64,000 nt of DNA, taken from contig JARHZA010000001.1 in NCBI GenBank assembly GCA_029258375.1, forward strand, positions 434,001 to 498,000, in the 5' to 3' direction. The DNA is from Eubacterium sp. (GTDB lineage Bacteria; Bacillota; Clostridia; Oscillospirales; Acutalibacteraceae). The position numbers were made by a program, and so were the translations under genes. Positions within the stretch are counted from its first letter, which is position 1. The number at the start of each line of letters is the position of its first letter. Shown piece by piece: positions 35,668 through 44,912 of the stretch. The notes below the pieces were generated by a model. It was given only the letters and a program-made list of their open reading frames with translations. It did not search any database and was not told the DNA's origin.

Positions 35668-36378
35668 ATGACATTGATGCCTGTTACAATGGGCTTAAAG
35701 GAAGAGTTATTAGACCAGCTGGAAATTCAACCGGTTTTCAAAATTCCTAATACAAACATTGTTATTGATGAAACAACCGTTGTATCGTGGATAATAATGG
35801 CCTTTTTTGTCATTTTAGCGATTTTTCTCACAAGAAACTTAAAAGTAGAGGGCGAAATTAGCCGTCGTCAGGCAATCCTCGAAATTTGTGTTGAAAAAAT
35901 GAGAGATTTCTTTAGAAAAATTATGGGCGAAAAGGGAGATCCTTATGTTCCTTGGTTGATGTGCATGGCTATTTTTATAGGTGCTTCTAATATGATTGGA
36001 TTATTAGGCTTTAAACCACCTACAAAAAGTATGCAGGTAACTGCTGCAATGGCTATAACAAGCATAGTCCTTGTTGAGTTTGCTGGAATTAGGCAAAAAG
36101 GTTTTGGCGGTCATTTGAAATCTTTTGCACAACCAGTTGCAGTTGTTGCACCAATAAATGTATTGGAAATCGTAATTAAGCCACTTTCACTTTGTATGCG
36201 ACTTTTTGGTAACGTTATAGGTGCATTCATTATTATGGAACTTATAAAGAGCATTGCCATTTTCAAAGTCGGCGTATCGCTTGCATTTAGTTTTTACTTT
36301 GATTTATTTGATGGCCTTTTGCAAGCATATATATTTGTATTCTTAACAGCTTTATATATTCAAGAAGCTGTAGAGTAA
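35668..36378 (+). CDS. atpB: ATP synthase F0 subunit a
   Basis: A 236-residue membrane subunit that forms the ion half-channels against the c ring. The essential arginine is Arg178 in PLSLCMRLFGN, and the last helices carry the Gln-containing AYIFVFLTALYIQEA motif. GGGAGG lies 7-8 bases before the ATG. It opens the operon directly; no atpI precedes it, unlike in many Bacillota. Confidence 0.95.
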   Translation: MTLMPVTMGLKEELLDQLEIQPVFKIPNTNIVIDETTVVSWIIMAFFVILAIFLTRNLKVEGEISRRQAILEICVEKMRDFFRKIMGEKGDPYVPWLMCMAIFIGASNMIGLLGFKPPTKSMQVTAAMAITSIVLVEFAGIRQKGFGGHLKSFAQPVAVVAPINVLEIVIKPLSLCMRLFGNVIGAFIIMELIKSIAIFKVGVSLAFSFYFDLFDGLLQAYIFVFLTALYIQEAVE

Positions 36379-36398: not shown

Positions 36399-36653
<255 letters not shown>

Positions 36654-36702: not shown

Positions 36703-37185
36703 ATGCTTAAGTTAGACTGGAATATTCTTTTTACACTTATTAACCTTGTTATTTTCTATTTACTTATGAAAAAGTTTTTCTTTAAACCAATCATTAGCAC
36801 TATGGATAAGCGTAAAGAGATGTTAGAAAAACAATTTAAAGATGCTGAAGATGTAAATACTAAAGCACTTGAACTAAAAAAAGAATACGAAGACAAAATC
36901 CAAAACGCACAAGAAGAATCAGCACGCATTATTAGTGATGCAAAAGAAAGTGCTAAAACTGAGTACGGCAAAATTTTGGATAAAGCTGAAAATGATGCTG
37001 AAAAAATTAAACAAACAGCTAAAAAAGCATCAGATGCAGAACGTGAAACTATTCTCCGTTCAGCAAAAGAAGATATTGCGTCACTTGCTATGGAAGCAGC
37101 AGAAAAAATTGTTGGCGCAAATGTTTCAGACAAAACAAACAGTCAAATTTTTGACGAATTTTTAAGTGAAGGCAGTGAAAAATAA
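36703..37185 (+). CDS. atpF: ATP synthase F0 subunit b
   Basis: A 160-residue peripheral stalk subunit: one N-terminal membrane helix (residues 5-25), then a long charged coiled coil rich in Glu, Lys and Ala up to about residue 135. Its stop codon overlaps the start codon of the next gene by one base (TAATG). In this organism its usual partner, the delta subunit, is fused to alpha. Confidence 0.94.
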
Positions 37186-39206
37186 TGATTCATAAAATTG
37201 AAGATTATATAAACACACTGCGTTCCTCTGAAATCAGTGTGTCAGATCTTGACAAAGCAAAAGAAATTTTTGATTCATCAGAAGAATTAGTGCAAATTCT
37301 TAACAGTCCATCAGTTTCACACGAAGAAAAAAAGAACGTTGTAAACGAACTTTTCCCTTCAGTTTTAAAATCATTTATAACTACTCTTGCAGAAGATTGT
37401 AATATTGATTCTTTAAGCAAAATTATAAATGAATATACAATTATGATGGATAAAAAGAACAGAGTTGCATCTGCAACTATTTACTGCGTAACAGAACCTG
37501 ATGAAAGCCAATTAAAAGGCATTGAAGAATTTGTTTGCAAAGAAGAAAATGCAGGCTCTGCAAAACTTGAAATTGTTAAAGATGAAAGCCTAATTGGTGG
37601 TTTTATTATTAGAATTGGCAATAAAGAGTTTGACAGAAGTCTTAGAAATAAAATAAATGAAATAAAAGAACAAATCACACAAAACGTAAGAAAATCATCT
37701 TCAACAGATAAAGATAAAATAATCACAACTCTTAAAAAAGAGATTAAAGATTATGATTTTGAAACATCTGGCGAAGAGGTTGGTACAGTAATTAGCGTTG
37801 GTGACGGTATCGCAAGAATTTATGGTCTTGACCACGTTAAATATGGCGAAATCATTGTTTTTGAATGTGGCATCAAAGGTATGGTGCAGGATATTAAGAG
37901 CAAATCTGTGGGTTGTATTCTTTTCGGTAACGATGTAGAAATCCACGAAGGCACAAAAGTAAAACGCACACATAAAAATGCAGGTGTACCTGTTGGTGAT
38001 AATTTCATTGGCAGAATTGTAAATGCACTTGGCGAACCTATTGATGGTAAAGGCGAAATTGAAGCAGATGATTACCGTTTTGTTGAACAGCCAGCACCTT
38101 CTGTTGTTGAGCGTAAATCAGTATCTCAACCACTTGAAACTGGTATTCTTGCTATTGACTCAATGTTCCCAATCGGTCGTGGTCAGCGTGAACTTATCAT
38201 CGGCGACAGACAGACTGGTAAAACATCTATTGCAATAGATACTATTCTTAACCAAAAGGGCAAAGATTGTATCTGTATCTACAACGCAATCGGTCAAAAA
38301 GCATCAACAGTTGCAAAACTTGTTAATACACTTGAAAAAGCCGGTGCTATGGATTACACAATTGTTGTTTGTGCAACAGCTGCTGACCCAGCATCACTTC
38401 AATATATTGCACCTTATTCTGCAACTTCTATTGCTGAATACTTTATGTATAAAGGTAAAGATTGTCTTATTGTTTATGATGATTTAAGTAAACACGCAGT
38501 TGCATATCGTGCACTTTCACTTTTACTTGAACGTTCTCCAGGACGTGAAGCTTACCCTGGTGACGTTTTCTATCTTCATTCAAGACTTCTTGAACGTTCA
38601 AGCCGTCTTTCTGATGAACTTGGTGGTGGTTCTATCACTGCTCTTCCAATTATCGAAACACAGGCTGGTGACGTTTCTGCGTATATTCCTACAAACGTTA
38701 TTTCTATTACAGATGGTCAGATTTTCCTTGAAAGTGACCTCTTCTTTAGCGGTCAACGTCCAGCTGTAAACGTTGGTTTATCTGTATCTCGTGTAGGTGG
38801 TGCAGCTCAAACAAAGGCAATGAAAAAGGCAGCAGGCTCATTGCGTGTTGACCTTGCTCAGTTTAGAGAAATGGAAGTATTTACTCAGTTCTCATCTGAT
38901 CTTGATGAAGAAACTAAGGCAGGTCTTAACTACGGTAAAGGCTTAATGGAACTCTTAAAACAACCTCTTGGAAATCCAATGTCACTTGCAGAACAAGTTA
39001 TTACACTTGTTGGTGCTATTGGTAAAAAGTTTGTTAATGTTCCTTCTGATGAACTTAAAGAATATCAAAGAAACTTATTAGATTTCTTTGAAACTTCTCA
39101 TTTTGAAATTATTAGCGAAATTGAAGACAAGAAAGTTCTTACCGACGAACTAAATTCTGCAATTCTTAATGCAATTGACGAGTTTGGAAAGGTGAATAAT
39201 GGCTAA
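37185..39206 (+). CDS. Fused ATP synthase F1 delta-alpha subunit
   Basis: A 673-residue protein that joins two normally separate subunits in one open frame. Residues 1-166 are a delta (OSCP) subunit, ending in the family signature [19 protein letters not shown] (136-154). After a short Ser/Lys linker (167-177), residues 178-673 are a full-length alpha subunit, from the N-terminal [19 protein letters not shown] through Walker A GDRQTGKT (340-347) to a normal C terminus. There is no stop or frameshift between them, and no in-frame ATG lies between Met88 and Met233, so a separate alpha is not obviously made. Because F1 has three alpha but one delta, this fusion raises a stoichiometry question. 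Operon position (b, delta-alpha, gamma) matches the normal order atpF-H-A-G. Confidence 0.95.
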
Positions 39207-40083
39207 CGCGAGAGAAATTCAAGGCAGAATGAAGTCTATTAAAGACACTATGAAGATTACAAATGCAATGTATATGGTGTCTTCTTCTAAACTTCAAAAA
39301 GCCAGAAAAGATTTATTAAATACAGAGCCTTATTTCAATATGATGCAAGATGCTCTTGCTAAAATCTTAGATGTAGCACCTGAAGTAGGTAATAAATACC
39401 TTGATGAACGTGTAAATAAAAAAGATGGCTCAAAAAAAATCGGTTATCTTGTTATCACAGCTGATAAAGGCTTGGCTGGTGCTTACAACCACAACGTAAT
39501 TAAAATTGTTGAAGAAAACGTTAAGTTGGAAAAAGACAATATGCTTTTTGTTGTTGGTCAAGTAGGTCGCCACTATTTTGAAAGAAAAAATATTCCAATA
39601 GATATTACATTTAATTATACTGCACAAAATCCTTCAATGAACCGTGCAAGACATATTGCTGAAAAACTTGTTGAGCTTTTTGTTAATGAAAAATTAGATG
39701 AAATATATGTAGTTTATACTAAAATGATTAACTCAATGACTGTTGAACCTATAACACAAAAACTTTTACCTATCAACGAAACACATATAGAAATGTCAGA
39801 AAATGAAGGTAAGCATTATGATAATGCAGAGTTTTTGCCAGATGTTCAAACAGTTTTCGATAAAATCGTTCCAGACTATGTTGCAGGTTTTATTTATGGT
39901 GCACTTATTGAATCATATTGTTGTGAACATAACTCAAGAATGATGGCTATGCAAACAGCAACAGACGCTGCAACAGATATGTTAAAACAGTTAAATGTAA
40001 GTTATAACCGTGCAAGACAGGCTGCAATTACACAAGAAATTATTGAAGTAGTTGCCGGTTCAAAAGCACAAAAGAAAAAATAG
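39199..40083 (+). CDS. atpG: ATP synthase F1 subunit gamma
   Basis: The 294-residue central shaft subunit. The N-terminal helix motif [21 protein letters not shown] and the C-terminal [18 protein letters not shown] and [13 protein letters not shown] motifs are diagnostic. It overlaps the delta-alpha gene by 8 bases and precedes atpD by 20 bases. Length is normal. Confidence 0.97.
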
Positions 40084-40103: not shown

Positions 40104-41489
<1,386 letters not shown>

Positions 41490-41513: not shown

Positions 41514-41921
41514 ATGAGTACTTTTAAACTTAAAATAGTTGCGTCAAATAAAGTGTTTTTTGACGGCGACTGTGAAAGTCTTACAATTCCATATCTCGAT
41601 GGCGGTCAAATGGCATTCCTTGCTCATCACGAAAACTGCGTTGTTCCTATTGAAGTAGGTGAAATGAAAGTTAAAGATGCAAACGGAAATGTTATAGATG
41701 CGTTTGTTGGTAGTGGCTTTATTGAATTTCTTAATAACGAAGCAACACTAATTTGTGTTTCTGCTGAACTTCCAGAAGAAATTGATAAAAGACGTGCTAT
41801 GGAGGCAAAAATTCGTGCCGAAGAAGAACTTCGCCAGAAAAGAAATAAAATGGAATATAATTTGTCTAAAGCAAATCTTGCCAGAGCTATGGAACGTCTT
41901 AAAGTTAAAAATAGACACTAA
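41514..41921 (+). CDS. atpC: ATP synthase F1 subunit epsilon
   Basis: A 135-residue subunit with an N-terminal beta sandwich (FDGDCESLTIPYLDGGQMAFLAHH region) and a C-terminal helical hairpin rich in Arg, Lys and Glu that can inhibit ATP hydrolysis. It is the last gene of the operon and is followed by a strong terminator. Confidence 0.95.
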   Translation: MSTFKLKIVASNKVFFDGDCESLTIPYLDGGQMAFLAHHENCVVPIEVGEMKVKDANGNVIDAFVGSGFIEFLNNEATLICVSAELPEEIDKRRAMEAKIRAEEELRQKRNKMEYNLSKANLARAMERLKVKNRH

Positions 41922-43368: not shown

Positions 43369-43538
43369 TTAGTGGTAAAACATTTTATTTTACAATGTAT
43401 ATTATGCTGAATAATATGTATAATTGTGAATAAAATTTCAATTATACTCGTATTATATATTATTTTTAATTTATATATTATGCATTAAAATTACCAAAAG
43501 TTTAAATGTATATTTTTTAAATAATGTTGCACAATTTG

Positions 43539-43567
43539 TTGAAAAAATTATCATACTATGATAAAAT
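43539..43567 (+). promoter_or_regulatory. rnf operon promoter
   Basis: TTGAAA (43539-43544) and TAAAAT (43562-43567) are 17 bases apart. The predicted start of transcription, near 43574, falls at the ribosome binding site AAAGGAG (43574-43580), so the leader would be only about 16 bases long. Confidence 0.6.
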
Positions 43568-43589
43568 GTTCAAAAAGGAGTTTGATAAT

Positions 43590-44912
43590 ATGAGAAGACC
43601 TTCTTTTAAATCAGGGGTACATCCTTTTGAAGGAAAAATGTACTCAGAGGGTAAAGAAATTGTATCAGTAGAACCATCAGATATTATGGTTTATCCCGTT
43701 AATCAGCATATTGGTGCTCCTGCAACTCCTCTTGTTAAAGTTGGAGACAGAGTACTTAAAGGAATGAAGATTGCAGAAGCGTCTTCATTTATTTCAAGCC
43801 CAGTTTTCAGTTCTGTTTCAGGAACTGTTAAAGCTCTTGAAAAACGTACAATGATTAACGGCAACGAATCAATGTGCATTATTGTAGAAAATGACTTTGA
43901 AGATGAATGTGCAGAAGGATTCGGCGACGTGAAAAATCCAGATGATTTTTCAAATGAAGAGATTATCAATATAGTAAAAGAAAGTGGTATCGTTGGTCTT
44001 GGCGGTGCTGGTTTCCCAACTAACGTAAAAATCTCTCCAAAAAATGCAGACAATATTGATTATGTAATTGTAAACGGTTCAGAATGTGAACCTTACCTTA
44101 CATCAGACTATCGCCTTATGGTTGAACGTGCAGACGAGATTTTAAAAGGTGTTTCAATCGCTCTTCGTTTATTCAAAAATGCGAAGGCAGTTATCGGCGT
44201 TGAAGATAACAAACCAAAGGCTATTGAAGTTCTTCAAGAAAAATGCAAAAACTATAACAACATCAGCGTTATGAGCCTTAAAACTCGTTACCCACAAGGT
44301 GGCGAAAGAAGACTTATTGCATCTGTTACAGGCAGAAAGATAAATTCACATATGCTTCCAGCAGACGCAGGCGTTGTAGTTTTAAATACTGCAACATCAT
44401 ACGCAATTTATGATGCAGTATGTAACAGTCACCCACTTATCCACAGAGTAATTACAATTACTGGTGATGGCGCAAACTCACCTTGCAATGTAGATGTTCC
44501 TCTTGGTGTTTCACACGAATATGTTGTTGAAAAATGTGGTGGATTAAAAGATGAAACAGTTAAAATTATTTCTGGTGGTCCAATGATGGGTATGGCTATG
44601 CCTGGTCTTGATTTCCCAGTTATAAAAACTTCTTCATCTGTTCTTGCATTAACAAAAGACGATGTTGAACAAATGCAACCAACTGCTTGCATTCATTGTG
44701 GCAGATGTGTTACTGCATGCCCAGAAAATCTTGTTCCTCAGTTAATGGCAGCTGCTTCTAACGCAAAGGATTATGAAAGATTTGAAACATTAAATGGTAT
44801 GGAATGTATCGAATGTGGTTGTTGTACTTATGTATGTCCAGCTAAAAGACCTCTTACTCAAACATTTAAACTTGCAAAAGTTCAGGTAAGAGCCTCAAAA
44901 GTTGTTAAATAA
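43590..44912 (+). CDS. rnfC: Rnf complex subunit C
   Basis: A 440-residue peripheral subunit of the Rnf complex, which oxidises reduced ferredoxin and reduces NAD+ while pumping Na+ or H+. It holds the NADH site and FMN (glycine-rich GLGGAGFPTNVK near residue 140) and two [4Fe-4S] motifs near the C terminus, CIHCGRCVTACP (from 367) and CIECGCCTYVCP (from 406). The start at 43590 is chosen because AAAGGAG lies 9 bases upstream and the protein then begins MRRPSFKSGVHPFEGK; the reading from 43524 runs across the promoter. The C-terminal extension seen in gammaproteobacteria is absent, as usual in Clostridia. Confidence 0.95.
   Translation: MRRPSFKSGVHPFEGKMYSEGKEIVSVEPSDIMVYPVNQHIGAPATPLVKVGDRVLKGMKIAEASSFISSPVFSSVSGTVKALEKRTMINGNESMCIIVENDFEDECAEGFGDVKNPDDFSNEEIINIVKESGIVGLGGAGFPTNVKISPKNADNIDYVIVNGSECEPYLTSDYRLMVERADEILKGVSIALRLFKNAKAVIGVEDNKPKAIEVLQEKCKNYNNISVMSLKTRYPQGGERRLIASVTGRKINSHMLPADAGVVVLNTATSYAIYDAVCNSHPLIHRVITITGDGANSPCNVDVPLGVSHEYVVEKCGGLKDETVKIISGGPMMGMAMPGLDFPVIKTSSSVLALTKDDVEQMQPTACIHCGRCVTACPENLVPQLMAAASNAKDYERFETLNGMECIECGCCTYVCPAKRPLTQTFKLAKVQVRASKVVK

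Follow-up and report, generated by a model that had tools for sequence, protein, structure and literature searches.

The open reading frame at positions 37185..39206 on the forward strand of the window (the entire analyzed stretch of 64,000 nucleotides of Eubacterium sp. DNA) encodes a real, full-length fusion of the delta and alpha subunits of the F-type ATP synthase, and this fusion is found in most of the genus as well as beyond it. The delta and alpha subunits are normally separate chains that are present in one and three copies per enzyme, respectively. Here, a single frame encoding 673 amino acids is open throughout from the ATG at 37185 to the TAA at 39206, and both the frame and the domain matches confirm the coordinates given for it in the initial annotation. 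The OSCP profile (PF00213), which represents the delta subunit, matches residues 20-163 over the cut-off (99 bits against 22.3; E-value 4e-28) and is covered from position 24 to 171 of 172, that is, in both its N-terminal and its C-terminal parts. The N-terminal domain of delta spans approximately residues 1-93 (37185..37463) and the C-terminal domain, which binds the b dimer, approximately residues 94-166 (37464..37682), as delineated by the OSCP match and by the alignment with the engineered chain 9jc1_I, which starts only at residues 94-95. An 11-residue linker of variable sequence (residues 167-177; 37683..37715), lacking in-frame ATG, GTG, TTG and CTG codons, leads into a complete alpha subunit (residues 178-673; 37716..39206, including the stop codon) with an N-terminal helix identified by alignment. 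The beta-barrel, nucleotide-binding and C-terminal domains of alpha are all recognized over the Pfam cut-offs (ATP-synt_ab_N, residues 198-262; ATP-synt_ab, 320-535; ATP-synt_ab_C, 542-667), and residues 176-669 score over the cut-off of the NCBIfam equivalog for atpA (TIGR00962). None of the 25 listed NCBIfam matches to this protein, of 41 in total, is a model for a delta-alpha fusion.

The fusion gene is located in a complete F-type operon on the forward strand, with the genes for subunits a (35668..36378; PF00119), c (36438..36653; PF00137) and b (36703..37185; PF00430) upstream and those for gamma (39199..40083; PF00231), beta (40104..41489; PF00006 and PF02874) and epsilon (41514..41921; PF02823 and PF00401) downstream. 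The stop codon of the b gene overlaps the start of the fusion by one base, and the gamma gene overlaps its end by 8 bases. In the genome that contains the window (98.5% complete, 3 contigs), there is a single OSCP match and no second delta was found, nor was an alpha other than that in the fusion ORF; the fusion protein otherwise matches only the beta subunit of the same operon, with 24% identity. Further downstream, an ORF (43524-44912) encodes a protein that, judging from its sequence, resembles RnfC, and an ion-pumping Rnf complex may directly follow the atp operon.

Distribution of fused and separate genes

Among the 80 genomes of the genus, 73 contain an OSCP match and 75 an alpha match at an E-value of 1e-60, in each case one per genome. 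Classification of the loci by domains and frame revealed full read-through from delta to alpha in 62 of the 73 delta-bearing genomes, including 5 in which the contig ends after the junction has already been read through. Eight of the 73 have only the C-terminal half of delta fused to alpha (in one of these, G331, the match is at a contig end and contains a stop codon), and in one more (G364) the contig stops just after the frame enters the N-terminal helix of alpha. Separate delta and alpha genes are present in only two of the 73, G301 and G346 (loci L253 and L254), where the TAA of delta is directly followed, in the same frame, by the ATG of alpha. Because these two members keep separate genes, function in this genus background does not depend on the fusion. 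The initial annotation had suggested a search for the same domain pair in relatives and considered that separate atpH and atpA genes in all of them would speak against the fusion; as the above counts indicate, such uniform separation is not observed.

Two other explanations were considered and rejected. An assembly or sequencing error is incompatible with the crossing of the junction, with a full delta, in so large a fraction of the delta-bearing genomes. A freak of one lineage is excluded by the full fusions among the named loci from Lachnospiraceae, Oscillospiraceae (Ruminococcus) and Monoglobaceae. The named loci are a biased sample, fetched with the protein from the window as the 80 best among 591 confirmed stretches; 26 of these 80 are full fusions longer than 660 residues, for example, in Pseudobutyrivibrio xylanivorans DSM 14809 and Oribacterium parvum. 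Butyrivibrio hungatei DSM 14810, in turn, carries the half fusion. In a survey of the family, 84 of the 300 sampled genomes have an OSCP match at an E-value of 0.001.

Variant loci and evolution of the joint

Five arrangements are seen in the family and among the named loci: separate full delta and alpha; full delta and alpha in one chain; half delta and alpha in one chain; a stand-alone half delta beside a separate alpha (13 loci); and a triple fusion in which b, half delta and alpha form a single chain of 738-754 residues (7 genomes). The triple fusions (L121, L123, L124, L125, L126, L127 and L128) combine a b-type N-terminus with a complete alpha. In the five of the seven that were compared with Pfam, the half-delta and alpha domains score over the cut-off, as does the b domain in two, with the remaining three below it. 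A separate b gene is located upstream of the triple fusion in all seven cases, and in five of the seven genomes (80 to 98% complete) the triple fusion is the only alpha at an E-value of 1e-30; a second alpha is present in the other two, G251 and G148. Should the b-delta-alpha chain remain uncut, it would tie every alpha to the membrane.

The stand-alone mini-delta frames (L134-L145 and L147) are 73-106 residues long from stop to stop, except for one of 157, and contain the C-terminal domain only, with a separate alpha adjoining. A further variant is a 785-residue delta-alpha fusion (L119:4527-6881) with an extra delta N-terminal domain before the full delta. At two loci (G057:C22:119124-119600 and G148:C36:4461-4880), the OSCP match to the half delta extends upstream across several stop codons. 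A search for a stray delta N-terminal domain in 7 half-delta genomes yielded a best E-value of 0.019, but it is a weak test, as its profile found the separate delta of G346 at 2e-4 and missed that of G301. More telling is the start of the frame: in those half-delta loci in which an upstream b was seen (51 of 53), the first start codon is located from 107 bases before to 14 bases after the stop codon of b.

A phylogenetic tree of alpha was constructed from 164 sequences by a quick LG+G4 search with midpoint rooting. Every one of the 80 named loci is included, as are 24 full fusions of the genus (out of 62), 9 loci each from the family set L004-L033 and the class set L183-L212 (30 in each set), and the remaining family and genus loci that had been fetched, except for the incomplete L134 and L245. 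Many branches of the tree are weak, and long branches may meet in the stand-alone half-delta group. On this tree, at least 11 changes between the fused and separate states are required, 8 of these forced by well-supported branches, along with at least 14 changes in the presence or absence of the N-terminal domain, 9 of these similarly forced. Half fusions appear in three places within the genus of the window, not all of them well supported. The tree does not show that fusion leads to the loss of the N-terminal domain, as approximately two independent pairs are informative, one in each direction, which is too small a number for testing. Given that the two genes of G301 and G346 are separated by a TAA only, and that 19 of 83 separate full-delta loci, counted with duplicates, have delta and alpha in the same frame, the loss of a stop codon would be a simple route to the fusion.

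Synthesis of the chain and composition of the enzyme

The enzyme is probably built from one uncut delta-alpha polypeptide that, as the only source of both subunits in the cell, would enter F1 in three copies and leave most molecules with a single stalk. Each crown helix of alpha would then have a delta C-terminal domain tethered to it, three per enzyme, and the three delta N-terminal domains would compete for the threefold axis, which seats only one; once one of these is seated, the two spare deltas would be idle or would intermittently hold an additional stalk. The initial annotation listed three options, namely three delta domains per enzyme, a cut chain, or two unused deltas; the possibility that additional stalks are held by the surplus deltas goes beyond these. 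In the Bacillus PS3 enzyme, the N-terminal domain of delta is located on the threefold axis of F1, and Ueno et al. (2025) argue that, seated there, it restricts the enzyme to one stalk (PMC12229609). Given that the chain in the window retains this domain, three deltas per F1, with one seated and mainly one stalk, would be expected. The domain itself looks to be kept under conservation in the full fusions, because among 27 of these F57 is invariant and P42 and K49 are nearly so. Decay of the fused N-terminal domain is unsupported: the ratio of N-terminal to C-terminal domain identity, compared over 171 loci with duplicates included, is 0.63-0.92 in bins under 1.0 for the fused deltas and 0.69-0.90, with one bin of 6 pairs at 1.17, for the separate ones, without a consistent difference between the two.

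A different composition, one fusion and two plain alphas per F1, would arise if the translation of some free alpha began at an internal non-canonical start or relied on another translational trick. Such a mechanism would provide exactly one delta per enzyme, and non-canonical starts such as ATT and ATA are outside the counts that follow, but we regard it as very unlikely. Methionines are located at residues 1, 87, 88 and 233, in agreement with the initial annotation, which had noticed that no in-frame ATG occurs between Met88 and Met233; there is no in-frame GTG, TTG or CTG in this interval either. A search of 37600-37800 for seven Shine-Dalgarno-like words yielded none in 37600-37775 and a single GAGG at 37776, which coincides with the beginning of the beta-barrel of alpha. 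Internal initiation on ATG, GTG or TTG in the window, which had already been considered improbable, accordingly looks unlikely. Other fusions were examined, with identical junctions removed, in a zone that begins 20 codons ahead of the start of alpha and ends 22 codons after it. This zone contains no ATG, GTG or TTG in 36 of the 86 full, 16 of the 53 half and 4 of the 7 triple fusions, compared to none of the 80 separate full-delta loci and none of the 13 stand-alone half-delta loci. A start codon accompanied by a nearby Shine-Dalgarno-like word occurs in 19/86, 16/53 and 1/7 of the fusions, respectively, and in 63/80 and 12/13 of the two classes of separate loci, so that the word test evidently overlooks some genuine starts. 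Of the full fusions, 50 of 86 have some ATG, GTG or TTG in the zone, at scattered positions, and 5 of 86 have an ATG with a Shine-Dalgarno-like word.

The usual 3:1 ratio would also be restored if the complete chain were synthesized first and subsequently cleaved in the linker, yielding normal alpha and delta, with the surplus two thirds of delta degraded. The linker is short, polar and variable, conceivably of the type that general proteases cut, but no conserved site is seen in it: in 27 aligned fusions, most columns have no majority residue and hence no shared cleavage motif is apparent. Furthermore, a cut in the half-delta relatives (53 distinct junctions) would free a delta without the N-terminal domain that holds it, although this objection is weakened by the 13 stand-alone half-delta loci, which suggest that such a delta can work. 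On balance, cleavage appears unlikely. It is quite unlikely that the full-fusion enzymes regularly have two or three stalks and a subunits, like the engineered half-delta enzyme, with the N-terminal domains displaced and the C-terminal domains tethered at each of the three alphas. Measured from the end of the delta profile, the tether in the window spans 14 residues before alpha is reached, with medians of 14 (86 full fusions), 13 (52 half fusions) and 13 (7 triple fusions). Its length resembles that of the engineered chain, and the number of stalks was tied by Ueno et al. to the count of delta C-terminal domains that are able to sit on F1 (PMC12229609). Against this, the same report holds the N-terminal domain responsible for the restriction to one stalk, and this domain is kept in the window and conserved in the relatives.

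The uncut chain with mostly one stalk, the reading that we favor, raises the question of the number of side-stalks on the natural enzyme. A natural chain that would be expected to force three whole deltas on each F1 tests whether the N-terminal domain alone sets the stalk number and whether the ion cost of ATP depends on the c-ring only, and the occurrence of separate, full-fused and half-fused versions within one genus makes the comparison possible between close relatives. A broader interpretation, which we consider rather doubtful, is that natural multi-stalk synthases are common in anaerobic Clostridia and that lineages alter the number of stalks through the delta-alpha joint: one, with spare sockets, in full fusions, more sockets open in half fusions, and an obligatory three in the b-delta-alpha chains. 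If so, the loss of the N-terminal domain in the 8 half-fusion genomes of the genus would open all three sockets, and the triple fusion would entail three stalks and hence an obligatorily high ion-to-ATP ratio.

Comparison with known ATP synthases

The half-delta fusion is already known, and the full-length form is a variant of this recently described kind. The initial annotation knew of no described delta-alpha fusion; this does not hold for the half form, which is in print (PMC12229609), but it stands for a fusion containing the whole delta, of which no description was found in a search of open-licence PMC papers. Within the same open-licence scope, no description was found of the stand-alone half delta or the b-delta-alpha chain, several of the queries being for delta-alpha only. 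A study of 62 butyrivibrios counts all F1 subunits, and its main text does not use the term 'fused' (PMC4478896). In Clostridia, partial gene sets lacking delta between alpha and b are reported beside whole operons (PMC5709465), and overlooked fusions may explain some of these operons seemingly without delta. With respect to assembly, the stalk of the E. coli enzyme is described as touching all three N-terminal helices of alpha by three different contacts (PMC5214741), and in Acetobacterium delta is reportedly added only after formation of the alpha3beta3 ring (PMC8904574).

The operon in the window has the same gene order as the ordinary bacterial F-type operon (a-c-b-delta-alpha-gamma-beta-epsilon) and all eight subunits, but its delta and alpha are encoded in one ORF. 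The b-delta fusion of Gordonia and some mycobacteria (PMC5709465; NF009961) is, like that in the window, a natural fusion of delta; its partner is b, however, so that the one-to-three copy conflict does not arise, whereas b in the window is an ORF of its own. The natural gene fusion of Acidaminococcus fermentans, mentioned in the Discussion of Ueno et al. with two further similar UniProt entries (PMC12229609), lacks the N-terminal domain of delta that the window keeps.

The closest counterpart is the engineered PS3 FoF1, in which delta is deprived of its N-terminal domain and the C-terminal domain is joined to alpha. This enzyme works and makes ATP; its stalks and a subunits number two on average and three at most, and its proton-to-ATP ratio is raised from 3.0 to 5.8 (PMC12229609). 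Residues 95-270 of the fusion in the window align with the engineered chain (9jc1_I, which occurs three times in the entry), and the alignment has one gap of 2 residues in the linker, the engineered linker being the shorter one; the covalent joint is thus of the kind that, in the engineered enzyme, has been shown to fit all three alphas. In both cases, the C-terminus of delta is followed by a short linker and the N-terminus of alpha, and the chain is the sole source of the two subunits. The engineered chain, however, lacks residues 2-104 of delta, whereas the one in the window is natural and keeps the whole delta, including residues 1-93.
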